Shown here piece after piece: positions 6,148 through 63,113 of a DNA stretch of 64,000 nt. The DNA lies in the NCBI RefSeq assembly GCF_003721565.1, contig NZ_RJJE01000007.1, positions 1-64,000 on the forward strand, in the 5' to 3' direction. Position 1 is the stretch's first letter; each line of letters starts with the position of its first letter. Origin of the DNA: Rufibacter immobilis (lineage in GTDB: Bacteria; Bacteroidota; Bacteroidia; Cytophagales; Hymenobacteraceae). The position numbers and the translations under genes are program-made. The notes beneath the pieces were generated by a model that saw only the letters and a list, made by a program, of their open reading frames with translations, did not search any database and was not told the DNA's origin.

Positions 6148-6158
6148 CGCGCAGAAAT

Positions 6159-6198
6159 CCGTTTAGGGGCTGTTTTTAGAAAAACGGCCCCTAAACGG
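6159..6198. repeat. 40-bp palindromic repeat (copy 3, near perfect)
   Basis: Both arms are complete (CCGTTTAGGGGC and GCCCCTAAACGG). It begins 12 bp after the stop of the upstream reductase gene and directly precedes the REPIN-like element. Confidence 0.95.
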
Positions 6199-6202
6199 AA
6201 CT

Positions 6203-7534: not shown

Positions 7535-10500
7535 ATGCCCAACCCCGAAACCCCGCTTCCGCACCTGCTCAAACAGTACCAGCGCCGTCTGCTCAACCTG
7601 AGCGGCTCCAATCGTTCCCTGGTGTTGTTGAAACCGTCGGCCAGTCTTCATGTAGATATCCATGCGCTGGACCACGCCCACAAAGGCCCGTCGTTTGACT
7701 ATGTGAAAGAGCTGCTGGCCGGTAAGCAGAACATCACCCTCTGCGCCGTCGCCGATGCCCGTGATGCCGCCCTGGCCCCGCTCACCAAGCAACTGAAAAC
7801 CATTCAGCGGCGGGCGCACATGATTTGGGAGGAACGCGGCGCGAAGGAGCTGTTCGTGGGCTGGCCCATGGTGGAAGGCGCGTTCCCAGATGGTACCTTG
7901 GTGCGCTGCCCGCTGCTGTTTTTCCCAGTGGAGCTGAAGGTGAACGAGAAACGGCAATGGCAACTGGTTCGGCCCGAAGACACACCCGCTTTCTTCAACA
8001 AAAGTTTCCTGCTGGCCTACGCGCACTACCTCAACCTGAAGCCCGATGAGGCGCTCATGGAAGAGGATTTCGATGAGTTCCCTACCGATGACCTCCAGTT
8101 CCGCACCAAACTCTACGAACTGCTCCGCGACAGTACTGTAGACGTCAATTTTAACCAGGAATTGCTCAAAGACACACTCCAGCCGTTCAAAGCCTACAAG
8201 CGCGAAGAACTGGAGAAAACCTGGAAGCCCGGCCAACTGAAACTGCAGCCCGAGGCGGTGCTAGGCATCTTCCCGCAGGCCGGTTCTTACCAACTGGCAG
8301 ACTATGATGATTTATTGGAGAACCCGCCCGCCGAATCTCTGGAGGAACTGCTTCTTCCGCAAGCGGAAATCAACCCAACGCAGGCCCAACTAGAGCAACA
8401 GCTGTTCACCGCCTTTGACGCCGATGCCTCGCAGGAGGCGGCGCTGCGGCAGGTGAAGGCGGGGCAAAGCGTGGTGGTGCAGGGCCCGCCGGGTACGGGA
8501 AAATCGCAGCTCATCTGTAATTTGGTTTCTGATTACCTGGCGCGGGGCAAAAGTGTATTGGTGGTCTGCCAGAAGCGGGCGGCGCTGGATGTGGTATATC
8601 AACGACTTTCCACCACTGGGTTAGACCAATTCTCTGCGCTGGTGCATGACCTGAACCTGGACCGTCCGGCGGTATTCAGCAAGATAAGGACACAGATTGA
8701 ACAGGTAGACGAATACAAACGGCAGAACGTGGCCTTGGGCAACATTCACGCCGAGCGGCAGTTTCTGGAAACCAGCCGCCGCATTAACCAGATAAGCGAA
8801 CGGCTGAACAGCCTCAAAGAAGCACTTTTTGATACCTCGGCCTGTGGCTGGTCACCCAAGGAACTGTATTTGCGCAGCAACCCGCGCGCACCGCACTTGC
8901 CCGCCGAGGCCGTCTTCCAGCACTTCACCGCCCAGACCTGGCCCGAGTGGCGGCCGCGCCTGCTGCATTACCTGCAAGACGCGGTGCTGCTGCAACACCC
9001 GGATTTCCCGTGGAACGAACGCCGTTCCTTCCACCACCACACCTGGACCGAACGCCAGAAACTGACCCAACTGCTCACTGCTATTCCCGCTTCGGCGCAA
9101 GCCGTTGCTGCTCAGGCGCAGGAACTAATGCCCCCGCAGGCCGAGCCTTGGGATGCCTTGCAAGCCTTGCTCCAGGAATTACCCACGCTGCGGGCTGTGC
9201 AAGAGACCTTGCAGGACAAAGCTATTTCGCGGCTCTTTTTCGGAAATCTGACCCAAACCAAAGACTTCAAAACAAGGGAAACGCAACTACAACAGCTACA
9301 GAAAGACACGGCAGCGGCGCAAACCAAACTATCATCAGAAGAGGCAATTCAGGTAACTCTACTACTCGCGGAGCATGACCAGGCGCAGAGCAGTTTCTTT
9401 AGTAAAATAGGCTGGGGCTTCTCTTCGGGTAAAAAGAAACTCTCGGCGTTCGCCGAAGGCAAAAAACTCACCAACCCAGACACGGCGGTAGAGCACCTGC
9501 GCACGGCCTTGAAGCAGTTGGAGGCGCTACAAACCAGTTGGAAAACCCTGCAGGAGCAAGAGCCGTCGCTGGAAATTCCGGCAGATGTGTATGGGGCCGC
9601 CGCGGCGCAGGAACTGGCACATTTGCAACAGGCGTGGGAACTGAGAAAAACGGTACACAAACTGATGGCCTACGAGGTGCTGCCGGAGGAACTGCTGCAG
9701 GTGCGCCCCGAGCGTTTCAGGGCTGTTTTTTCTGAAACGTTGCCAAAACTCCAGGCTTTGCAGGAACAACTTCGGGAGTGGGAACAATGGTTGACGTCTT
9801 CTCAAATTGAAGTGCTGGCCACCAACCCCGCCGCTGCGCAGGAAATGACACAGAGCCTCAACGAGCATTTTGATAGAATGGTGGCCTTTGATGCGCTGGT
9901 GCAGACGTTTTCGCCGGAACTGAAAAGCTGGCTGGAAGAAGTACGTGCGGCAGTGCCTGAAAGCGTGGAGGCTCAACTGTGCGCCATTGAGAACAGCGTG
10001 CAGCTGGCCTGGCTGCAACAGCTGGAAGGCCAGAACCCCGTGCTCACCATTGTGAGCACCGGCGAGCTGGAGCGGTTGGAAACCGAATTGCAGGAGAAAA
10101 TCAAACAGAAAGCCGACCTCAGCCGCCAGATCATTCTGCTCAACCTGCGCGAGCAGACCTACAAAAACATGGAATACAACCGGCTGGGCAACCCGGTCAC
10201 GTACCGTCGGCTGTTGACTCAGGTGAGTAAGAAACGCATGCTGTACCCGCTACGCAAGCTTAACGCCGAGTTTGGGGACGAGATACGGCAGCTGCTGCCG
10301 TGCTGGCTGGCCTCTCCGGAGACGGTGTCGGCGTTGTTCCCGTTGGAGCGGATTTTTGATTTGGTCATCTTTGACGAGGCGTCGCAATGCTTCGCCGAGG
10401 TGGGCGTGCCGGCTATGGTACGCGCCAAACAGGCCGTGATTGCCGGTGATGAGCAGCAGCTGGGGCCGTCAGATTTGTACCGCGTGCGGTTTGGCGCGGA

Positions 10501-12452: not shown

Positions 12453-12473
12453 GAAACCTGCCCCAGAGGCAAA

Positions 12474-12518
12474 AGGCGTTTAGCGGCTCTTTTTCCAAAA
12501 ACAGCCGCTAAACGCCTT
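12474..12518. repeat. Palindromic repeat with extended perfect arms, terminator-like (copy 8)
   Basis: AAGGCGTTTAGCGGCT pairs with AGCCGCTAAACGCCTT across CTTTTTCCAAAAAC. A T-rich run follows (12518-12526), so it reads as a terminator 21 bp after the lipoprotein gene. Confidence 0.92.
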
Positions 12519-12555
12519 TCTTTTTTGTGGGCCGATAAGAGGTGGTGCCTTTTCT

Positions 12556-14970: not shown

Positions 14971-15009
14971 CGTTTAGGGGCTGCTTTTTTAAAAAAAGCC
15001 TGAAAACAG
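14971..15009 (+). repeat. Palindromic repeat fused to a terminator (copy 11)
   Basis: CGTTTAGGGGCTGCTTTTTT and right half AGCCTGAAAACAG. The right half is at the same time the first 13 bases of the stem of the 27-bp hairpin at 14997-15053. Confidence 0.85.
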
Positions 15010-15053
15010 AACTGCCTTGCTGATGGTCAGCAAGGCAGTTCTGTTTTCAGGCT
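14997..15053 (-). terminator. Very long perfect terminator hairpin of the glycine-rich gene
   Basis: A perfect 27-bp stem (14997-15023 with 15027-15053) and a 3-nt loop. Read on the minus strand it is followed by eight T's. It lies 25 bp after the stop of the minus-strand glycine-rich gene. Confidence 0.93.
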
Positions 15054-17249: not shown

Positions 17250-17481
17250 AATTGTTTTTAGATGTTAGTTGGTTTCGTCTGCCTCAGAAAGTGAGATGCT
17301 CTTTTCCCTCAGCAAGTGTTTATACTATACGAACGGGTGTTTGCATGGTTAAGGCTGGTATTGTGATTATTTGTGCCGCAAAGGCCGTAGCTGAGGGGCT
17401 TGCCCCAACTAAAGGCAGCCTTGGAACGCCGTGATAGGATTTATGCTCAGTTGAACCTATCCTGACTTTATATGGCAAGAC
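17250..17481. other. Gene-free leader region of the glycine-rich gene
   Basis: No gene or clear RNA structure. It presumably holds the minus-strand promoter of the glycine-rich gene; I could not assign a convincing -7/-33 pair. Confidence 0.4.
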
Positions 17482-17555
17482 CATAAAAATATGAGCCTGC
17501 GTTTAGGGGCTGTTTTTCCAAAAACAGCCCCTAAACGCAGGCTCATATTTTTATG
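17482..17555. repeat. Palindromic repeat with 36-bp perfect stem (copy 12)
   Basis: The 40-bp core (17499-17538) is flanked by copy-specific arms CATAAAAATATGAGCCT and the exact complement. The whole gives a perfect 36-bp stem (17482-17517 with 17520-17555) around a 2-nt loop. It lies 22 bp after the stop of the minus-strand EEP gene and probably ends its transcript. Confidence 0.97.
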
Positions 17556-17577
17556 CAGACCAAAGAGTAGAAGTTAC

Positions 17578-18681
17578 TTAACTCCGCTCCTGGCTTTGGG
17601 AAGTGGGCAGAGGGGTGGCGCTGGTATCCGGTACGGTAACATCCAGTTTGTCCAGTAACTCTTCTGCGTCTTCCTGCTCTTCCGCATCGGCTATGGGAAC
17701 TTCGTGTTCATCGGCTTCCAGGGGTTCATAGTTGAGCCTGATGAAAATAGGAAAATGGTCTGACCCGAAGGCGGGCAGCCGCTTCATTCTGATCAGCCGA
17801 AAGGCCGGGTCGTAGAAAATATGGTCCAGTGAATACCGGAAGAACGGCACAAAGGCATTGTAGGTGTTAAAGAACCCGCGGCCAATGCGGGGGTCTAGCA
17901 GGCCGCTTATTTTCCGGAACAGGTTGGTGGTGTAAGACCAGGCCACATCGTTCAGATCACCGGCCACAATGCTGGCGTAGGGAGATTCTTTGGCCATTTT
18001 TGCAACCGTCAAAAGCTCGGCCTCGCGGGTGTCTGTGTCTTTGTTGAGGTGGGGCGGCTGCGGGTGCACCGTGAAAAAGTCAAATTTCTTCCCAGACGGT
18101 AGCTCAATGAGCATGTAGAAAGACGGAATGCCCTCTTCCACTAAGTAACGAACCTCGGTATGGCTCAGCTTATACTTACTGAAGAACATCATGCCATACG
18201 TATTCTCCAGCGGTTCTTTAATGCAGTAGGGGTACCGGTCGTCCAGCTCCGCCAGGGCGTCTGCCCAGCGTTGGTTGGGTTCATTGATGAGCAGCAGTTC
18301 CGGGTCTGTCTCTTTGACAATCTTCAGGAAACGGTCATAGCGGTGGTTAGACATCCGCACGTTGGAAATCATAATCCCGAAGGAGTTTTTGGGGGCCTTT
18401 ATCTTGGACCGGAGCGCCTGTACCCGCACCAGAGGCGTGAATTTGTACACGTGCACCAGTTCATTCATAATGGCCAGCACCAACAGCCCCGCAAATATCT
18501 TTTGGGTGAGCAGCTCAAAGCCTATGAACCAGCCATATAAACCCAGGACCAGAGTTCCCAAGATGGCTACCTGTACCCGCGGGAAATCTAGAATCCTTAT
18601 CCACCAGTAGGTGCTCTTGACAAGCGTGAGTAAAGAAGCTAAAATGGCAAAGCAGCCAAGCAGCTCAAGGGCTATTTTCAT
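17578..18681 (-). CDS. Membrane-anchored endonuclease/exonuclease/phosphatase family protein
   Basis: A 367-aa protein from the chosen ATG at 18681 (MKIALELLG); an ATG at 18711 would add ten residues but breaks the hydrophobic start. Three transmembrane segments fill about residues 1-75. The EEP fold follows with NEPNQRW, TVHPQPP, AGDLNDVAWS (catalytic Asp/Asn) and SDHFPIFIRL (catalytic His). Substrate unknown: EEP enzymes cut nucleic acids, phospholipids or inositol phosphates. The acidic tail (about 340-367) is of low complexity. Confidence 0.82.
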   Translation of the reverse strand: MKIALELLGCFAILASLLTLVKSTYWWIRILDFPRVQVAILGTLVLGLYGWFIGFELLTQKIFAGLLVLAIMNELVHVYKFTPLVRVQALRSKIKAPKNSFGIMISNVRMSNHRYDRFLKIVKETDPELLLINEPNQRWADALAELDDRYPYCIKEPLENTYGMMFFSKYKLSHTEVRYLVEEGIPSFYMLIELPSGKKFDFFTVHPQPPHLNKDTDTREAELLTVAKMAKESPYASIVAGDLNDVAWSYTTNLFRKISGLLDPRIGRGFFNTYNAFVPFFRYSLDHIFYDPAFRLIRMKRLPAFGSDHFPIFIRLNYEPLEADEHEVPIADAEEQEDAEELLDKLDVTVPDTSATPLPTSQSQERS

Positions 18682-18779
18682 AGGTCTGAAACAGGTTAAG
18701 TCCGTTCTCATACTGGTTTAATTCCGTAGAAGTTGCCTTGTGAGAAATACGGTTAGGCCGAAAAGGCCTGTATAGCAGA

Positions 18780-18829
18780 AAAAGCCGTTTAGAGCCCGTT
18801 TTTTTAAAATCAGGCCCTAAACGGCTTTT
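18780..18829. repeat. Palindromic repeat with matching arm extension (copy 13)
   Basis: Arms AAAAGCCGTTTAG and CTAAACGGCTTTT are perfectly complementary around a less regular centre. 20 bp after the gldH stop, in terminator position. Confidence 0.92.
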
Positions 18830-18849
18830 AGAAAGTTGATGAAATAATC

Positions 18850-19335
18850 CTATTGACCGGCGGTTTTCTCTACCCGCACTCCCACGGCCATAATGCCAGG
18901 GAGCGGGTCTTGGCGCATGTACTGGTTCAGCTTGAGGCGATAGGTGCCCACCTGCTGGAAGCGCACGTTTTTGAGCGCCCTGAACTGGTGGTCAAAAATG
19001 TCGCCGGCTCCGCTTCCTTTGGGCTCCCCGGTTTTGGGGTCCATCAGGAACATCTCGTGCAGGGCAGAACTCAGCTGTTGGCCGTCTGGGCCAGTGAGGT
19101 AATGCCGCAGGTACAGGTTGTAGAACGGGTAATGCAGTGCGTTGCGCACATTGAAGTACACATTATACGCCTGCGTAGTGTCTGTGATCTCAAACGTAAA
19201 CACCGGTGCCAGTTTCACGGGCCACTGGTTATTGGGGATGTCTTGGTTTTCCTCAAACACCCGGTTGCCGTCGCAGCTGGTTAAAAGTGCGCCCAGGCAG
19301 AACAGGCAAAAGAAGAAATGGAGTCTTTTTCTCAT
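18850..19335 (-). CDS. gldH: Gliding motility lipoprotein GldH
   Basis: A 161-aa lipoprotein (signal ending LLTSC, Cys at about 21) with the GldH pattern: N-terminal FEENQDIPNNQWP, FEITDTTQAYNVYFNVRN, and YPFYNLYLRHYLTGPDG. GldH is needed for gliding or associated secretion in Flavobacterium; many Bacteroidota that do not glide keep it. Its start overlaps the ricT stop (TAATG), the usual gene order in this phylum. Confidence 0.93.
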   Translation of the reverse strand: MRKRLHFFFCLFCLGALLTSCDGNRVFEENQDIPNNQWPVKLAPVFTFEITDTTQAYNVYFNVRNALHYPFYNLYLRHYLTGPDGQQLSSALHEMFLMDPKTGEPKGSGAGDIFDHQFRALKNVRFQQVGTYRLKLNQYMRQDPLPGIMAVGVRVEKTAGQ

Positions 19336-21267: not shown

Positions 21268-21315
21268 CAGGGCGTTTAGGGGCTGATTTTGGAAAAACCG
21301 CCCCTAAACGCCCTG
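21268..21315. repeat. Palindromic repeat with matching arm extension (copy 14)
   Basis: CAGGGCGTTTAGGGGC pairs with GCCCCTAAACGCCCTG (16-bp perfect outer stem). The outer CAGG/CCTG is specific to this copy. Confidence 0.96.
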
Positions 21316-38804: not shown

Positions 38805-38856
38805 CCCAAGCAAAAAGAAAGGCCGGTTCTTCAACCGGCCTTTCTTTTTGCTTGGG
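38805..38856 (+). terminator. 24-bp perfect terminator hairpin after the DUF2723 gene
   Basis: Stem 38805-38828 pairs with 38833-38856 around loop CTTC, 6 bp after the stop. It directly abuts repeat copy 23. Confidence 0.93.
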
Positions 38857-38907
38857 GGTTTGCGTTTAGGGGCTGTTTTTCCAAAAACGGCCCCTAAACG
38901 CAAACCC
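38856..38907. repeat. Palindromic repeat with extended arms (copy 23)
   Basis: GGGTTTGCGTTTAGGGGC and GCCCCTAAACGCAAACCC are perfect complements; the outer GGGTTT/AAACCC is specific to this copy. Confidence 0.97.
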
Positions 38908-39894: not shown

Positions 39895-39931
39895 AAAGAG
39901 CCGGTGCGTTCTCTGAACGCACCGGCTCTTT
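39895..39931 (+). terminator. Terminator of rlmB
   Basis: 17-bp perfect stem 39895-39911 with 39915-39931 and a 3-nt loop, 20 bp after the stop. Its last bases are shared with the outer arm of repeat copy 24. Confidence 0.9.
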
Positions 39932-39976
39932 GCGTTTAGGGGCCGTTTTTTCAAAAACGGCCCCTAAACGCAAAAG
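39928..39976. repeat. Palindromic repeat with extended arms (copy 24)
   Basis: TTTGCGTTTAGGGGCCG and CGGCCCCTAAACGCAAA are complementary. It lies between two terminators of convergent genes. Confidence 0.97.
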
Positions 39977-39978
39977 GC

Positions 39979-40023
39979 AAAAAAGGAGAGGCCCACTAAT
40001 TTGTTGCGGGCCTCTCCTTTTTT
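39979..40023 (-). terminator. Terminator of the manC-kdsD transcript
   Basis: A 16-bp perfect stem (39979-39994 with 40008-40023), with a T run on the minus strand, 15 bp after the manC stop. Confidence 0.9.
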
Positions 40024-53383: not shown

Positions 53384-53500
53384 AGCAAGCTTATTAGTTT
53401 TGTAATTACTCGGGTGAAGTGCGCCTCATCTGCACAAACTCCGTGTATTTTAACTTGCAAGGCTGTTCTTGCGTTAAAAAGGCCAAAACAGAACCTACCT

Positions 53501-55357
53501 ATGAAACTTGCCGGCGCCGCCCTCAACCAAACTCCCCTGGATTGGGAAAATAACCTCCGCAACATCAAAACCGCCATTGAACAGGCCAAAGCAGAGAACG
53601 TGGACATCCTGTGCCTCCCCGAAATGAGTATTCCGGGGTACGGGTGCGAGGATCTGTTCCTGAGCGAGTGGGTGTCTGTAGAGTGCTTTGAGCGCCTGCT
53701 GGAGATAAAAGAGTGGTGCGAAGGTGTCATTGTGTGCGTGGGAATTCCTATTCGGTTGAACAACACTACCTATAACTGCGCCTGCGTCATCAGAGACAAA
53801 GAGATTCTGGGTTTTACCGCCAAACAGTTTCTAGCCAATGACGGCGTACACTACGAGCCGCGCTGGTTCAGTTCCTGGGTGCCGGATACCGTGGAGCAGT
53901 TTGAGGCCATGGGTCAGACGTACCAGATTGGGGACATTATTTATGAGCACCAAGGAGTGAAATTCGCTTTTGAGATCTGCGAAGATGCCTGGCGCAACGA
54001 GAACCGGCCCGCCTACCGGCACAAGCCCAAAGGCGTGCAGCTCATCATCAACCCCAGCGCCAGCCACTTTGCCATGAGCAAAACCGATGTGCGCTACCAT
54101 TTGGTGGTAGATGCCTCGCGGCAATTTGAGTGCACGTATCTGTACGTGAACCTGCTGGGCAACGAAGCCGGCAAAATGATCTATGACGGCGAAATCATCA
54201 TCGCGCAGAACGGGAATCTGCTGCTGCGCAATCAACTGCTTTCGTTCAAGAGCGTCGATTTTGAGTGTGCCGAAGTCTCTTTTGAAACCCCGCTGCCGCC
54301 GGTGGAAATGGATCTGTTGCCGGTTGACGAGAACATGGAGTTCATCTCGGCCATTTCGCTGGCCCTTTTTGATTACCTGCGCAAAAGCCGGAGCCGGGGC
54401 TTTGTCCTCTCATTAAGCGGCGGGGCCGATTCTTCTTTGTGTGCCGTGGCCGTGGCCGAGATGGTGCGCCGGGCCGTGGAGGAAATCGGGCTGGAAGAAT
54501 TCGCCCAGAAAACCAACAGCCTCACGCCCGAGGAGATCGAACAATACAATCAACTAGCAAACACCGAAGTCAGGAACATACTGGTGGGTAAATTACTGGT
54601 CACCGCATACCAGGGCACTGTCAACTCCTCAGATGACACCTATCGCTCCGCGGAGGAGCTGGCCAAATCCATTGGCGCGGTTTTCTATAACTGGACCATT
54701 GACGAGGAGGTGAAAAGCTACCGGGGCAAGATTGAGCACGTCATCGGCCGCGAGCTTACCTGGGAGCAGGACGACCTCGCGTTGCAGAACATTCAGGCCC
54801 GCGTGCGCGCCCCCGGCATCTGGATGCTGGCCAACCTCCGTAACTCGCTCCTGCTGGCCACTTCTAACCGCTCAGAGGCCAGCGTGGGCTACGCCACCAT
54901 GGACGGCGACACCGCCGGGAGCATTTCGCCCATCGCGGGCGTAGACAAAGCCTTCATCCGGCAGTGGCTGGTGTGGGCGCAGTTGCAGCTGGGCTATGAA
55001 GGGCTGCAGTACGTGAACAACCTACAGCCTTCGGCGGAACTGCGGCCCCTGGAGAACACCCAAACCGATGAGGAAGACCTGATGCCGTACCCGCTCCTGA
55101 ACCAGATTGAGCGGCTGGCGTTCTACAACCGCCTCTCGCCGCAGCAGGTGTTTCAGGAGCTGAAAGGCACTTATCCAGATGAACAATTACGCCAGTTCAT
55201 CCAGCGTTTTTACTCGCTCTGGAGCCGCAACCAATGGAAACGCGAACGCTACGCCCCCGCCTTCCACCTGGACGACTACAATGTAGACCCGCGCAGCTGG
55301 CTTCGGTTCCCAATCCTCAGCGGCGGTTTCCGGCAGGAACTGAGCGAACTGGGTTGA
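53501..55357 (+). CDS. nadE: Glutamine-dependent NAD+ synthase
   Basis: 618 aa from ATG 53501 (MKLAGAALNQTPLDW). The nitrilase-like glutaminase domain (about 1-270) has catalytic Glu in LCLPEMSIPG, a Lys in GFTAKQFLANDG and Cys in FEICEDAW. The NAD synthase domain (about 300-600) has P-loop LSLSGGADSSLCAVAV and ATSNRSEASVGYATMDGD. Makes NAD from deamido-NAD using glutamine. Confidence 0.95.
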   Translation: MKLAGAALNQTPLDWENNLRNIKTAIEQAKAENVDILCLPEMSIPGYGCEDLFLSEWVSVECFERLLEIKEWCEGVIVCVGIPIRLNNTTYNCACVIRDKEILGFTAKQFLANDGVHYEPRWFSSWVPDTVEQFEAMGQTYQIGDIIYEHQGVKFAFEICEDAWRNENRPAYRHKPKGVQLIINPSASHFAMSKTDVRYHLVVDASRQFECTYLYVNLLGNEAGKMIYDGEIIIAQNGNLLLRNQLLSFKSVDFECAEVSFETPLPPVEMDLLPVDENMEFISAISLALFDYLRKSRSRGFVLSLSGGADSSLCAVAVAEMVRRAVEEIGLEEFAQKTNSLTPEEIEQYNQLANTEVRNILVGKLLVTAYQGTVNSSDDTYRSAEELAKSIGAVFYNWTIDEEVKSYRGKIEHVIGRELTWEQDDLALQNIQARVRAPGIWMLANLRNSLLLATSNRSEASVGYATMDGDTAGSISPIAGVDKAFIRQWLVWAQLQLGYEGLQYVNNLQPSAELRPLENTQTDEEDLMPYPLLNQIERLAFYNRLSPQQVFQELKGTYPDEQLRQFIQRFYSLWSRNQWKRERYAPAFHLDDYNVDPRSWLRFPILSGGFRQELSELG

Positions 55358-55415
55358 TTTGGAGATGTGCTAATGTGCTGATTAGAAGATGTGCTGATTA
55401 GGACTTTGGTAACGC

Positions 55416-55459
55416 TTCTGTTTTGGGGCTGTTTTCTGAAAAGCAGACCTTAAACAGAA
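55416..55459 (+). repeat. Palindromic repeat (copy 31)
   Basis: TTCTGTTTTGGGGCTG and a right half ending CCTTAAACAGAA; the outer TTCTGTTT/AAACAGAA is perfectly complementary. Confidence 0.85.
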
Positions 55460-55536
55460 ATTCTTGTCAACAGAATGAGCTACTATGGTGCGGAAGATAC
55501 TTCCGTGCCTTGCTAAACAGTATCTGTAGGTGCCGG

Positions 55537-55578
55537 GGCGTTTAGGGGCTGTTTTTGAAAAAACGGCCCCTAAACGCC
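55537..55578. repeat. Palindromic repeat (copy 32, near perfect)
   Basis: GGCGTTTAGGGGCTG...CGGCCCCTAAACGCC. In the frame of the next gene it would be translated RLGAVFEKTAPKR, which explains a false upstream extension of that gene. Confidence 0.96.
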
Positions 55579-55613
55579 TTAGTGTTATCAGACAATTTTT
55601 TTGTGCAGGCTTT

Positions 55614-56240
55614 ATGGAAAATCTGGCATGTCCGCCTTCCTTTAATACGCTGGAGCGCAAGGCGTGGGAATTTGCTGTGGCCGCCCATGGCGAGCAGCGG
55701 CGCAAATACCATAATGAGCCGTACGTGAAGCACCTGGAGCGGGTGGCCCAAACGGTAATGGTCTATGGCGGAACCACCGGCATGGTGATGGCCGCGCTGC
55801 TGCATGATGTACTGGAAGACACGCCTGTGACCGAATCCGAAATGCTGGTGTTTCTGGAGGAAGCCTGCGCCGGTTCTATTGTGAAACCCGCTGAGGTGCT
55901 GGAGATGGTGGAAGAACTCACCGACCAGTTCACCAAACAGCAGGCTCCCGGTTATAACCGGAAACGGCGCAAACAGATGGAAGTGGAACGGCAGGCCCAT
56001 ATTTCGGCCCGGGCCCAGACCATCAAGCTCGCCGACATCATTGACAACACCCGAGACATTTTGGAACACGATTTCAGCTTCGCGAAGGTATACATCCCGG
56101 AGATTGTGGCGCTGCTGGAAGTACTGAAGAAAGCCGAGCCGTTCAAGCTGTACCTGTTGGCCTGCTATGAGGTGCAGAAAGCGTTGTTGGCCCTGGAGGA
56201 GCGACGGGAGCGGCCTTCCTGGGAAGCGCCAGAAGCATAA
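55614..56240 (+). CDS. HD-domain hydrolase, MESH1/SpoT-HD-like
   Basis: 208 aa from ATG 55614 (MENLACPPSF); the frame is open from 55530, but that part is the repeat element. The HD pattern is ERKAWEFAVAAHGEQRRKY, a His in YVKHLERV, AALLHDVLEDT with the metal-binding His-Asp, and IKLADIIDNTRDI. This resembles the small (p)ppGpp hydrolases and the HD half of RelA/SpoT; no synthetase domain. Hydrolysis of (p)ppGpp is an inference. The stop codon overlaps the outer arm of repeat copy 33. Confidence 0.85.
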   Translation: MENLACPPSFNTLERKAWEFAVAAHGEQRRKYHNEPYVKHLERVAQTVMVYGGTTGMVMAALLHDVLEDTPVTESEMLVFLEEACAGSIVKPAEVLEMVEELTDQFTKQQAPGYNRKRRKQMEVERQAHISARAQTIKLADIIDNTRDILEHDFSFAKVYIPEIVALLEVLKKAEPFKLYLLACYEVQKALLALEERRERPSWEAPEA

Positions 56241-56286
56241 TTGCGTTTAGAGGCTGTTTTCCCAAAAACAGTCCCTAAACGCAATT
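56239..56286. repeat. Palindromic repeat with extended arms (copy 33)
   Basis: AATTGCGTTTAG and CTAAACGCAATT are complementary. Lies between convergent genes and includes two bases of the HD gene stop codon. Confidence 0.95.
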
Positions 56287-56311
56287 TGCAGGGAAAGATA
56301 AATGAACAGCG

Positions 56312-57610
56312 TTAAGGTTTTGTCCTGAACCTTATCTCATACGAGTCCAGAGGTTTGCCATCGGTGGCCCTGAAACCACTTATCTTGAAACTGTAAGAAC
56401 GGCCCGGTTTAAGGTCCACTTTATACCCATAGGATTTCATGTCTGGAGAGAAACCCACGCGGCCTACCACGGGGAACGACGCTTCTCCGCCAGAGCCGTA
56501 ATCCGCTGCCTGAAAGCGCAGCATCTGGGAAGAGAATTCTAGACGTATCTCCTGCACGGTAGCGTCCAGCACACTGTCTGCCCCCGCAAAAGGAATGATG
56601 CGCGTAATAACTGGTTTTTGCGCCGCATAGGCCTTGCGCAGCTGGGCTTTGTTGAGGGGCTCCTGGTAAAATTTAGATTGGGTCAGGAAAGCTTCTACCG
56701 CGGCGTCATCGTCATACTGTAGTTCAATGATTTCTTTGATAGCCTGCTGTTTGTTTTTGGCCTGGGCATAATACGCTTTACAGATGGCATAGCCCATGAA
56801 GTAGCCGAGGTCAGGATGTGGATCGTTCCGGTTGTAGAACCAGTTGCCATCCCAGGTCTCAAACATCTCTGCCTTGAATTTCTCCTTCAGCTCAGGCAGG
56901 TGCGCCGGGCCATATTCCATGTAGGGGAGCGGCATGGTTTTGCCGGTCACCAGTTCCGTCATGAAGTCGCAGGCACCTTCCATAAGAGCAGTGCCCAACA
57001 GCATATTGCCCAAGCTTTTCTGCTGGGTGTGCACATACTCATGCACGTTCAGCGGAATCATGTTCTGGAATGGATTAGTGGAGTAGTATTGGCGCAAAAA
57101 GGTCTGTAGATTCTGGGGCAGTTCTGAGACGTCTACAGAGGAATTGCCGGTGACCAGTTCGGCCCCCACCAGCACCAGGCTGTCCTTGTATGTTCCGCTG
57201 GTCCGGAAAACCCCGATGGCGAAGTAGATGTTCGCGGGTTTGAGCGGCGGGTAGAGCTGTCGGAGTTTCTTCAGGTGCGGCTCCAGCCCGTCGGCCCCGG
57301 ATTTGGCCAGTTGGGTACGGGGCCTGAGGGAGTTCCAGAATTTCGGGTATTTTCTGATGGCGTTTACCCATTCCTCGGGCTTGTAATTCCTTACCTCCCT
57401 CATGGCTTTTAGGCCGGGCGTGCCTTTATCCAGGTACAGCGTTTGCAAGTAATGCAGCTGCTTTACGCTGTCCTGAGTGGTGCGCATGCTGTCATAGGCC
57501 ACCCAGAAATTGTCAACGTCGGTGGTAACAACGCGCTGCGCTTTTTTCTGCGCGAAGCCCACCGCAAGGGCGAAGAGGCTGAGGGCCAGGGTGGCGAAAT
57601 ATTTTTTCAT
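56312..57610 (-). CDS. Predicted secreted gluzincin metalloprotease with Ig-like tail
   Basis: A 432-aa protein with a signal peptide (about 1-20, ending VGFAQ). The zinc-protease motif HEYVH lies near 191-195 (LNVHEYVHTQQ), followed by a second acidic motif ALMEGACDFMTELVTG about 20 residues later, as in DUF2268-type Zn proteases. The C-terminal 95 residues (about 335-432) look like a Big_5-type Ig-like fold. Substrate unknown; probably periplasmic. Confidence 0.75.
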   Translation of the reverse strand: MKKYFATLALSLFALAVGFAQKKAQRVVTTDVDNFWVAYDSMRTTQDSVKQLHYLQTLYLDKGTPGLKAMREVRNYKPEEWVNAIRKYPKFWNSLRPRTQLAKSGADGLEPHLKKLRQLYPPLKPANIYFAIGVFRTSGTYKDSLVLVGAELVTGNSSVDVSELPQNLQTFLRQYYSTNPFQNMIPLNVHEYVHTQQKSLGNMLLGTALMEGACDFMTELVTGKTMPLPYMEYGPAHLPELKEKFKAEMFETWDGNWFYNRNDPHPDLGYFMGYAICKAYYAQAKNKQQAIKEIIELQYDDDAAVEAFLTQSKFYQEPLNKAQLRKAYAAQKPVITRIIPFAGADSVLDATVQEIRLEFSSQMLRFQAADYGSGGEASFPVVGRVGFSPDMKSYGYKVDLKPGRSYSFKISGFRATDGKPLDSYEIRFRTKP

Positions 57611-57661
57611 GGAGGAGGTAGATAAGAGATAATAAGATCGGGATTAGGACTTAGAAAGCAA

Positions 57662-57707
57662 AATGCGTTTAGGGGCCGTTTTTCCAAAAACAGCCCCTAA
57701 ACGCATT
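57662..57707. repeat. Palindromic repeat with extended arms (copy 34)
   Basis: AATGCGTTTAGGGGC and GCCCCTAAACGCATT are complementary; 23 bp after the stop of the minus-strand receptor gene. Confidence 0.97.
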
Positions 57708-60160: not shown

Positions 60161-60543
60161 ATTGGATTTCTTAAGGGTAGAGGTACAGATTACAGTAAGG
60201 ACTCATGGATGCCGTTAGGGGACACTCTTCCTGGGGTACCACAGGAACAGTCAAGGCAAAGGCATAAAGCAGACAGAACGGGTAATGCGCGCATGTACTT
60301 AATAGATGAAGAACAGCTCAAAGCGGTTGCCTCCCTATTCAATTATTTTCTGTTTTTATGCTATTTCCGGAAAAAGAGGCTCTAAACGCCCGTGCCTCCC
60401 GGTAAAGGAAGCCATAGCGTAGCCGGAAGATTAGCATAAGCGGGTAAATGGGCCGTTGAAGGTAGGCCGGTACTAATGGGCTAAAGACAAGGGATTTTCC
60501 CAGGGGTTGCACCTGAACGGAAGTTTATTTCACGCTCCCAAAC
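60161..60543. other. Gene-free region between the two receptor genes
   Basis: It holds one degenerate repeat copy (60350-60389). No promoter assigned for the minus-strand receptor gene that starts at 60160. Confidence 0.4.
60350..60389 (-). repeat. Palindromic repeat, reverse orientation, degenerate (copy 35)
   Basis: On the minus strand: GCGTTTAGAGCCTCTTTTTC then a degenerate half ending AAAAACAG. Confidence 0.7.
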
Positions 60544-60578
60544 AAAAAAGGAGCACCCGTGGCAGGCGCTCCTTTTTT
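60544..60578 (-). terminator. Terminator of the second receptor gene
   Basis: AAAAAAGGAGC pairs with GCTCCTTTTTT around a 13-nt loop, 15 bp after the stop. Confidence 0.85.
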
Positions 60579-60593
60579 ATTTGGGAATAGTGA

Positions 60594-63113
60594 TTAGTTA
60601 GATTCGCCGCCCTTGGCGTCATCGTTCCGGATGGAGCGTTTGCTGCGGGGCTGCTGTTTCATGTCCATTTTCCCGAAACGGTACGAGAAACTCATCCGCA
60701 CGCCGCGGTTGTAGTTCAGGTTCTCGGTGTACTGCGTAAAATTGTCGTTCTTCAGGTCTGAGGTGAACTTGATGCCTTTGGAGAACGGGTTGTCTACGCC
60801 CAGGGTCAGGCTGCCTTTTTTCTCCCAGAGCTCCTTGCGTACGCTGAAGCTGGAGAAGTAATAGCCCGAGAACTTACCCTGCACGCTAGGCCGCGGCGAA
60901 CTGTACGACCCGAATGCCTGTACCGCCAAGCCTTTGCCAAAGTCATAGCCCGAGTTCAGGTTAAAGCTGTACTGCATGCCCGAGTTGTTCTGTAACGTGC
61001 TCCGCAGCGTGATGTAATTAAGGTTCATGCTGCCGCCCACGTTCCATTTGGGCACCGGCTTGGTGTTCCCCGAAAGGCTCACACCGTACGTCGCGTTTTT
61101 CCCGATGTTCTGATACGTGGTGTACGCCACATCCTCCTGCTGCCAGGTTCCGGCCACAATGGGGAGGTTACCATCCCGGCCCACAATCCGGCGGATGGAT
61201 TCAATGGCGTTGTTGGTCTGGCGCAAATACAGCGAGAGGTTGATAGAGCTGGTCTTGAAATAATTGCTGTAACCCAGCTCATACGCGTGGGCCAGCTCCG
61301 GCTCCAGCTCCGGATTCCCGAACGACACGTTCTTGGCGTCAATGATATTCACGTAAGGGTTCAGGTACCAGATCTGTGGGCGCTGGATGCGCTGCGTATA
61401 ACCCACCCTGAACGTCTGGCTTTTGATGGTTCTGGATACCAGAATGTTGGGGATGAAGTTGGCGTAACTGTCGGTGAAAGGGTCTTGGGCGGGCCGTATG
61501 TACTGGCCATCAATGTTGGTGTACTCAAAGCGGGCCCCGGTTTTCACGTTGTAGTTCTTGAGCTTGAAGCCGTAGGAAGCGTAGGTGGAGTATACGTCCT
61601 GGTCATAGGTGAACTCGTTGGGGTCCAGTTCCTCGGTGCCGGTGGAGTACCGGATGCGGCGGTAAAGCGCGTCACTTTCGGCGCGGCGCAGAATGCCTTT
61701 GGTGCCAATCTCCAGCTGGGTTTTGTTCTGGAACGGGTGCACGTAATCTATCTGGAACGTGGCCTCGCGGTTGGTGCCTTCGTTGTTGTTGCGCAGCAGC
61801 GTATCCAGCACCGTTTCCTGGTTTAGGAAAATGTCCTGGTTGTTGATTCTGGTGTTGTTCCCTTTGTTCCACTGGGCCAGAACGGAGAGTTCCTGCTGCG
61901 GTTTGAAGATATGGGTGTAACCCATGTTCAGATCCACAGACTGGTTTTTGTTTCGGCCCCAGCCGAAGTTGTCAATCTGCTGCGCCAAATCAGGTGCGTT
62001 CTGGAAGGACTGCTGGATTCCTCGGTTATGATAACTGCCCTGGTAGAGGCTTACGCCGGCCGTCACGTTGTTGGTGGAGTCAATGTCCAAGTCAAAACCG
62101 GCCTGCCCGTACACCCCGCCGCCCCGGCTTCTCGATTCTCCGTTCTGAGTAAGGTTGCTTTGGTAAGCCTCCGCACCGGTGCCGTACGTGACGGTCCGTT
62201 CCAGCAGGCTCTCATTGCGGTTGTTGAACTGCTGGTGCGTGCCCATGCTGGCGTTGAACCCCACTTTGCCCCGCCGCACGTTCACGTTGCCGTTGCCGTT
62301 AGCGGTCCGGTTACCTACTGAGATAGTTGTGCTCCCGTTCACGCCGTATAGGGTGTTCTTCTTGGTGATGATGTTGATGATGCCGGCGGTGCCTTCGGCG
62401 TCATATTTGGCCGAGGGGCTGGTGATGACCTCCACCGTTTTGATCATGTCTGAGGGAATCTGGCGCAGGGCATCGGCCACGCTGTTGGCCATGATACTGG
62501 ACGGTTTGTTGTTGATGAGCACCCGCACGTTAGAGGAGCCGCGCAACTGCACGTTCCCGTCCAGGTCTACGCTCAGAGACGGTACTTTCTTGAGCACGTC
62601 TGAGGCGTTACCGCCAATGTTGGTGATGTCCTGCTCGGCGTTGTAGACCATGCGGTCCACTTTGTCTTCCACCAGTGGTTTTTCGCCCACTACCGTCACT
62701 TCCTGTAGTTTGTTCTGGATGGGTTTCAGGATGATGCGGCCTAGCTCAATCTCCGGGTCTTTCTCTGAAACTATGATGCCAGTACGGGTAAAACTCTCAT
62801 AGCCAATAAAACTCACCGACACAGAGTAACTCCCGAAGGCCACGCGCGACAACGTGAAACGGCCCCGGTCATCGGTGACGGTGCCGTCTACGGGTTTGCC
62901 AGTGGCAGAATTAATCAAGGAGATGGTGGCAAATTCTACGGCCTTGTTGGTGGAGGAATCGGTGACTACGCCGCTAATTTTGCCGGTAGCCCGCTGAACA
63001 CCTCCGCCCGGAGCTGTGGCCGTAGAGGGAGTAGGGGCATGGGAAGGCGCCTGAGCATGTACAGAAGACACTGCCGCCCAACACAGGAAAGCAATCAGGA
63101 AAGAATGACGCAT
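60594..63113 (-). CDS. TonB-dependent receptor family outer-membrane protein (paralog)
   Basis: An 839-aa protein: signal peptide (about 1-20), Pro/Thr/Ala linker, CarboxypepD_reg-like domain at about 43-130 (GKISGVVTDSSTNKAVEFATISL), plug with SDVLKKVPSLSVDLDGNVQLR, and a beta-barrel. The plug matches the neighbour at 57731-60160 almost motif for motif (both SPSAKYDAEGTAGIINIITKKN), while barrel loops differ. The tail is polar (NDDAKGGESN). Likely an ancient tandem duplication with different ligands. Confidence 0.92.
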   Translation of the reverse strand: MRHSFLIAFLCWAAVSSVHAQAPSHAPTPSTATAPGGGVQRATGKISGVVTDSSTNKAVEFATISLINSATGKPVDGTVTDDRGRFTLSRVAFGSYSVSVSFIGYESFTRTGIIVSEKDPEIELGRIILKPIQNKLQEVTVVGEKPLVEDKVDRMVYNAEQDITNIGGNASDVLKKVPSLSVDLDGNVQLRGSSNVRVLINNKPSSIMANSVADALRQIPSDMIKTVEVITSPSAKYDAEGTAGIINIITKKNTLYGVNGSTTISVGNRTANGNGNVNVRRGKVGFNASMGTHQQFNNRNESLLERTVTYGTGAEAYQSNLTQNGESRSRGGGVYGQAGFDLDIDSTNNVTAGVSLYQGSYHNRGIQQSFQNAPDLAQQIDNFGWGRNKNQSVDLNMGYTHIFKPQQELSVLAQWNKGNNTRINNQDIFLNQETVLDTLLRNNNEGTNREATFQIDYVHPFQNKTQLEIGTKGILRRAESDALYRRIRYSTGTEELDPNEFTYDQDVYSTYASYGFKLKNYNVKTGARFEYTNIDGQYIRPAQDPFTDSYANFIPNILVSRTIKSQTFRVGYTQRIQRPQIWYLNPYVNIIDAKNVSFGNPELEPELAHAYELGYSNYFKTSSINLSLYLRQTNNAIESIRRIVGRDGNLPIVAGTWQQEDVAYTTYQNIGKNATYGVSLSGNTKPVPKWNVGGSMNLNYITLRSTLQNNSGMQYSFNLNSGYDFGKGLAVQAFGSYSSPRPSVQGKFSGYYFSSFSVRKELWEKKGSLTLGVDNPFSKGIKFTSDLKNDNFTQYTENLNYNRGVRMSFSYRFGKMDMKQQPRSKRSIRNDDAKGGESN

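Follow-up and report, generated by a model that had tools for sequence, protein, structure and literature searches.

REP sequences of the GTAG and CGTC superfamilies are described, in the part of the source drawn on here, as short palindromes of high copy number that lie mostly downstream of genes, in convergent or same-strand spacers (PMC3733652). According to the same part of that account, the residues of their stems vary in a paired manner, and G·T pairing is read as a sign of transcription (PMC3733652). Template switching during replication has been published for RNA genes, and the footprints expected of it, as far as the portion used here goes, are stem extension and inverted loops (PMC8794818).

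REP-like repeats have mostly been treated as mobile DNA. The hairpin family described here from Rufibacter immobilis apparently belongs to the RNA 3'-end machinery, with compensated site-specific stems. Its members are probably 3'-end RNA hairpins that carry a repeated tip on a site-specific stem, the latter preserved by compensatory evolution, with a role at the RNA level.

The window is the whole stretch of DNA analyzed, positions 1 to 64,000 of contig NZ_RJJE01000007.1 of the 4.77-Mb R. immobilis genome. Together with positions 1 to 1,200,000 of contig C10 it forms an own-genome sample of 1.264 Mb, about 26% of the genome. Comparisons were made with 15 sister genomes (16 with R. immobilis), including Rufibacter sediminis, R. 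hautae, R. latericius, R. psychrotolerans, R. glacialis, and Sabulibacter ruber. Convergent, tandem, divergent, and in-gene contexts were assigned with a home-made open reading frame scorer.

Hairpin copies in the window

The longest copy is built as CATAAAAATATGAGCCT + core + AGGCTCATATTTTTATG, and the inverted-repeat scan of the window shows its arm positions to be paired throughout (36/36). The 36-nt core (GTTTAG..CTAAAC) is flanked by 19 paired positions per side, 17 of them past the common GC. This hairpin lies 22 nt 3' of an Exo_endo_phos gene (17578-18711, minus strand; Pfam), and its minus-strand RNA folds with −64.3 kcal/mol (z of −14.4). The preliminary description had reported this 36-bp perfect stem together with copy-specific, self-complementary flanks at further copies; the stem is real, and all of the other flanks were located. 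The copies are as follows.

17482-17555, minus strand: longest copy, with a 36-bp perfect stem and a 2-nt loop (inverted-repeat scan and RNA fold)
18780-18829, minus strand: hairpin on the 3' side of the gene for the GldH lipoprotein (18850-19335, minus strand; Pfam), flank AAAAG (15-species ortholog)
6158-6199, no strand assigned: copy with TCCG/CGGA (inverted-repeat scan and ortholog in genome G005)
12472-12519, no strand assigned: copy with private flank AAAGGC/GCCTTT (inverted-repeat scan)
21268-21315, no strand assigned: copy with private flank CAGGGC/GCCCTG (inverted-repeat scan)
38856-38907, no strand assigned: copy with private flank GGGTTTGC/GCAAACCC (GGGTTT/AAACCC) (sequence)
39929-39974, no strand assigned: copy with flank TTTGC/GCAAA and convergent genes on both sides (inverted-repeat scan)
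55416-55459, no strand assigned: imperfect copy with TTCTG/CAGAA ends (sequence and R. sediminis block)
55537-55578, no strand assigned: copy with GGC/GCC ends (inverted-repeat scan and R. sediminis block)
56239-56286, no strand assigned: copy with AATTGC/GCAATT (inverted-repeat scan and R. sediminis block)
57662-57707, no strand assigned: copy with AATGC/GCATT (inverted-repeat scan and sister genomes)

The copy at 18780 has 24-bp arms with three mismatches in the inverted-repeat scan, and its neighbors, by Pfam, are the genes for GldH and for an endonuclease-like protein. Two copies adjoin terminator-like hairpins: the one at 38856-38907 immediately follows an ordinary hairpin of this kind (38805-38856), and the one at 39929-39974 is next to another (39979-40023). 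Element-like sequences at 9219-9260 and 9707-9752 lie within a 1,331-amino-acid reading frame and have counterparts in 11 to 13 sisters; unlike those of most spacer copies, their cores are closer to the orthologs than to other copies of the same genome.

Copy number and distribution of the family

A profile built from the window copies matched 487 copies in the 1.264-Mb sample, which scales to approximately 1,840 per genome; on reversed sequence neither this profile nor a genus profile gave a match. By context, 152 copies are convergent, 255 are tandem (same-strand), 52 are divergent, and 28 are in predicted genes, in a sample whose spacers of at least 60 nt number 145 convergent, 413 same-strand, and 162 divergent. 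The element is present in 104 of the 133 convergent spacers of 60 to 600 nt and in 183 of the 361 same-strand spacers in that length range. In three classes of strict copies, stop codon and core are separated by a median of 25.5 to 36 nt.

The genus profile finds 12 to 37 copies per 64 kb in each of the 16 genomes. The strict core, searched genome-wide, occurs 436 times here, 1 to 15 times in 9 of the 15 sisters, and 0 times in the remaining 6. It had no match in 184 genomes from other genera of the family, and five stretches of 74 to 80 kb from such genera gave one match to the own profile at an E value of ≤0.05 and none to the genus profile. Because it alone of the 16 carries hundreds of near-identical cores, R. 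immobilis is a natural test of stepwise paired change versus template switching and of repeat homogenization. Its species core is CGTTTAGGGGCtgTTTTTccAAAAAcaGCCCCTAAACG, and the genus consensus is CGTTTT.GG..CTGTTTTTC..GAAAACAG..CC.AAAAC. Of the 16 genomes, the sister G012 has the highest within-genome core identity (0.79), and its consensus has a paired core shift, with CTCATTT/AAATGAG replacing CTGTTTT/AAAACAG. Four hairpins of G017, which belongs to a different genus of the family, have similar outer arms (CTATATA.../...TATATAG) and private inner stems, a layout that is the reverse of the Rufibacter arrangement.

Rfam returned no match above the gathering score on the window, and at 17300-18900 it gave subthreshold matches only, mostly to microRNA models. 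At title level, no paper among the matches listed describes this hairpin family.

Private flank pairing at gene 3' ends

The strict pattern GTTTAGsGGC..GCCsCTAAAC occurs in 150 copies in the 1.264-Mb sample. As a control, the right flanks were exchanged among these copies and the pairing beyond the core was recounted. Runs of at least 6 private pairs are found in 72 of the 150 copies, compared with 2.6 expected from swapped flanks, so that the flanks exceed chance. Complementarity at the fifth position outward is 0.65, versus 0.29 after swapping, and background is reached by about position 15. The earlier remark remains valid that matching private flanks would not come with a simple inserted element.

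Context counts used the 469 of 487 copies that are near full length, with 18 partial or end-of-sequence copies left out. Private runs of at least 5 were counted in 48/146 convergent and 68/248 tandem copies, together 116/394 at 3' contexts, and in 4/50 divergent and 0/25 in-gene copies, together 4/75 (p = 2 × 10−6). For copies of at least 35 bits the corresponding values are 108/276 and 3/39. Private pairing occurs almost only at gene 3' ends and is a minority feature of the family, as approximately 70% of the 3'-end copies have no long private stem. In extended copies the private flank has 7 mismatches in 908 positions, a density resembling that in the outer stems of ordinary hairpins (20/1,998).

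Covariation among orthologous hairpins

The covariation test proposed in the preliminary description was positive at the one site counted, the 18780 hairpin, which occupies the same place in 15 species (R. immobilis included) in an almost ungapped alignment. Base pairs changed on both sides number 14 of 22, against 5.7 after shuffling, and 39 cells changed on both sides, against a shuffled mean of 8.5; 87.2% of the cells are paired (74.5% shuffled), there are 31 further pair types (18.3 shuffled), and the covariation score is 0.382 (0.128 shuffled), with each value reached in 0 of 500 shuffles and kinship inflating some of them, least the counts of pairs and types. Slid registers give at most 7 pairs. 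Toward the outside the pairing is less constant, positions 7 and 8 being paired in 7/15 and 3/15 species, respectively, and 8/15 species leave the interior pair 19-42 open while the outer arms covary. In the transcript sense a U tract, which is an A tract on the plus strand, follows the hairpin in most of the 15 species.

Across the genus, 158 ungapped pairs of ortholog hairpins from 120 species pairs, which are not independent, hold 155 paired and 373 one-sided changes. The one-sided changes consist of 148 G·T, 97 A·C, and 128 other mismatches, and a further 45 two-sided changes are not Watson-Crick in both members.

Close relatives allow single copies to be followed. Two segments of the window match R. 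sediminis at 94.7% (53437-57615) and 91.7% (60543-63005) identity, versus approximately 82% over the whole aligned region, and judged from these identities they likely reflect recent exchange between species. No paired flank change was seen in the first segment. At 55416 the core is identical in the 95%-identical R. sediminis block, and the outermost pair is T-A here and T·G there; the copy at 55537 differs by one change confined to a single arm and by another in the loop; and at 56239 the flank is the same, whereas a cluster of seven differences falls in the left arm and loop, and one further difference lies in the right arm. At 57662 the flank ATGC/GCAT is retained in two sisters (G001 and G010, the latter being R. 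sediminis), and in G010 the core carries a paired change from GGGGC/GCCCC to GAGGC/GCCTC. The G005 ortholog of the copy at 6158 has a longer paired extension that is absent from the R. immobilis copy.

The preliminary description had attributed the matching flanks either to selection for hairpin function or to copying through a hairpin, and had counted free divergence of one arm against both. Selection is supported by the covariation at 18780, by the restriction to 3' ends, and by a sense G·T bias in strong hairpins (see below); copying through the hairpin was not demonstrated. Divergence of one arm alone does occur, in the copy at 6158, in the outer part of the 18780 hairpin, and in the outermost base pair at 55416, and among ortholog hairpins overall one-sided changes outnumber paired ones.

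RNA or DNA as the selected form

Selection on the RNA predicts tolerance of G·U, but not of A·C, in the transcript sense. Transcript-sense mismatches were counted in hairpins with a score of at least 11. Same-strand spacers, pooled, show a G·T:A·C ratio of 119:56 (p = 2 × 10−6), in which the sister counts are not independent because hairpins are shared. Convergent spacers show 56:59, a difference from the same-strand class with a p value of 0.001, and divergent spacers of R. immobilis show 4:10. Among same-strand elements the ratio is 37:17 in R. immobilis (p = 0.009) and 18:8 in the sisters (p = 0.08), and among same-strand ordinary hairpins it is 20:11 (p = 0.15) and 44:20 (p = 0.004), respectively. 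With degraded copies included (all same-strand profile copies, core), the bias is gone (156:139, p = 0.35), and the flanks of same-strand profile copies, at 4:2, hold too few mismatches for testing. The orientation of the element relative to transcription shows no significant bias (sense:antisense of 127:105, 114:88, and 67:84) and so does not explain the excess of G·T over A·C. This excess gives moderate support to selection at the RNA level, and from it we infer that RNA rather than DNA is the selected form.

Proposed role at transcript 3' ends

The copies would be transcribed as stem-loops at gene 3' ends, each with the core as a repeated tip that in a minority stands on a long basal stem of site-specific sequence. 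The pairing of this basal stem would be maintained through compensatory substitutions, the hairpin mattering in the RNA, and its most likely role would be the formation or protection of the transcript 3' end. The gldH site may be an ordinary intrinsic terminator, which it resembles in having a hairpin followed by a U tract. Tandem copies have no downstream U tract as a class (TTTT in 35 and AAAA in 38 of 227), and most of them are therefore unlikely to be classical intrinsic terminators; for the same reason, same-strand copies more probably block 3' exonucleases or assist factor-dependent termination. Stems of 36 bp are also longer than a terminator requires. The element and ordinary hairpins are not significantly anticorrelated within the same spacer (p = 0.10 for convergent and 0.51 for tandem), so the element is not clearly a terminator replacement. 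We infer a role at 3' ends, for example as a barrier behind Rho-dependent ends or as a terminator where a U tract occurs. Rho, SbcD, and an SbcC domain are present in 16/16 genomes; the long palindromes thus persist despite SbcCD.

Positions and cores among sister species

When same-strand spacers of the window are matched with those of the sisters, the element is present in both in 127 cases, in R. immobilis only in 32, in the sister only in 3, and in neither in 66. Shared presence holds in the two shorter spacer-length classes; the longest is uninformative, with nearly every R. immobilis spacer occupied. Core identity is 0.627 with the matching sister spacer (129 pairs), 0.61 with a random sister element, and 0.73 with other sites of R. 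immobilis. Under tighter orthology (120 pairs found and 22 not found or ambiguous) these values are 0.684, 0.605, and 0.711, respectively, in a set that includes three in-gene sites (6909, 9225, and 9713) as well as three sites from the recently shared block. The window positions appear mostly common to the sisters and the cores look species-specific. This pattern suggests concerted cores at fixed places, and turnover at saturated gene ends would also be compatible with it.

A tentative extension is that the family undergoes concerted evolution in place. A substantial share of the approximately 1,800 hairpins may occupy the same gene ends throughout the genus with their private basal stems intact, and in each species the repeated cores may be converted to one common type (strict core: 436 copies here, 0 to 15 per sister). 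The rewriting might proceed by ectopic conversion, template switching, or coevolution with an RNA- or DNA-binding factor, with no visible transposase.

Alternative origins of the paired flanks

Replication template switching, i.e., fold-back copying or hairpin-templated correction that writes one flank onto the other and leaves selection only to filter, is an unlikely main cause. Perfect interiors are more common in extended copies (33/57 for runs of at least 7 versus 15/59 for runs of at most 4, p = 6 × 10−4), and as runs lengthen, the mean number of inner pairs (of 16) climbs from 10.6 to 15.4; an excess of perfect interiors is predicted by selection and by copying alike. The seven clustered left-arm and loop differences at 56239 from its approximately 95%-identical block mate, with a loop change from CC to GG, also fit such copying. 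Ordinary terminator-like hairpins likewise pair beyond their A/T tracts, with runs of at least 4 in 38/69, a statistic that is conditional on tract length and for which the register profile is the safer comparison. The outer arms of the terminator-like hairpin at 14997-15053 match part of a neighboring element arm.

The distribution of the pairing speaks against copying. A DNA process that is blind to transcription should act in divergent spacers too, but divergent and in-gene copies are nearly without private pairing (4/75). Fold-back copying that starts at the loop passes through the core, which should then be perfect as well; in the same 95 extended copies, however, mismatches are about eight times denser in the core interior (92/1,520) than in the flank (7/908). 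In simulation the flank measure understates the true rate (a measured 0.0077 corresponds to approximately 0.01), which does not close this gap. The interior pair of 18780 that is open in 8/15 species and the lack of a paired flank change in the single close block (R. sediminis) also argue against copying. Template switching is possible as a supplier of paired mutations.

Loops of 42 copies were oriented by a C·C mismatch, giving 19 CC, 12 GG, and 11 other; this count was set aside as evidence of loop inversion within the genome, because the mismatch may not fix the ancestral orientation. Terminator-like hairpins at 14997-15053 and, on contig C10, at 790277-790336 and 1191069-1191127 carry an element-like end, AAAACAG...CTGTTTT, in both outer arms; at 14997 the left arm falls inside the neighboring element, and the match of the right arm is isolated and inverted.

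Somewhat less probable still is that a mobile element was inserted into the loop of an existing terminator hairpin, so that the private arms are the old terminator stem. Many long private arms are terminator-like, having an A tract and stem on one side and a mirroring T tract on the other (e.g., AAAAGCGCG/CGCGCTTTT), and convergent spacers hold 31 of the 57 extended copies. In the long examples, however, the arm meets the core without unpaired leftover loop bases, although a run count would miss copies with leftovers. No clean empty site was found in 120 species pairs, where 17 gapped candidates reached a flank identity of 0.55 at best and spacers are mostly too diverged to reveal one. At 18780 each of 15 species has both the arms and the element, with covariation in the arms, so that compensatory change is needed even under insertion.

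Mobilization by a RAYT transposase was rejected. A motif-matched protein is present in R. immobilis (181 amino acids, with motifs NHLH, WQ, and YIHQNP), but no enrichment of the element was found at the flanks of such genes: across 20 Y1_Tnp loci, for the 12 with a RAYT-like Y motif, the element lies within 400 bp upstream in 3, downstream in 6, and on both sides in 2, compared with 0.31, 0.56, and 0.16 for 279 sister genes as the baseline. In addition, G006 has no Y1_Tnp match at an E value of 0.001 despite 29 copies in 64 kb. The hairpin family thus shows no transposase link that could be found. The R. immobilis RAYT gene, at 1432-1977 of its stretch (C1:452724-452942), is the only Y1 transposase match of the genome, and an 11-mer common to its two flanks lies in an element copy; RAYT genes of three sisters have short sequences common to both flanks that are unlike the hairpin element.

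A chance or composition artifact of palindrome scanning, for which the individual weakness of short flanks such as AAT or CAGG would speak, is refuted by the swapped-flank test and finds no match in reversed sequence.

Comparison with known systems

The 181-amino-acid protein carries the motifs of RAYT/TnpA-REP subclass 2.6, which the part of the source used here assigns to Bacteroidetes, with atypical flanking structures (PMC6006769). The elements are not enriched beside the 12 RAYT-like genes, and G006 has copies without a Y1_Tnp match.

Intrinsic terminators share with the Rufibacter family the hairpin at the 3' end, the U tract of the gldH site, and the compensatory evolution of stems, and differ from it in that the same-strand class has no U tract, the tip is repeated, and stems reach 36 bp. 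Hairpins shaped by template switching, as far as the cited portion describes them (PMC8794818), are similar in their perfect stems, multibase paired changes, stem extension, and possible loop inversion. The Rufibacter pairing, however, follows gene 3' ends, a distribution not expected from the mutation alone.

In anatomy the family also resembles REP sequences. As in the account of these that was drawn on, the Rufibacter family is a high-copy extragenic palindrome with a 3' bias. By inspection, neither the genus consensus nor the flank composition contains an unpaired GTAG or CGTC foot. The Rufibacter core alone is approximately 36 nt, compared with REP repeats of 20 to 40 bp in the same portion of that source (PMC3733652), and the element has a private, site-specific stem outside the repeat and no RAYT link that was found. 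By its anatomy, the Rufibacter family is REP-like.
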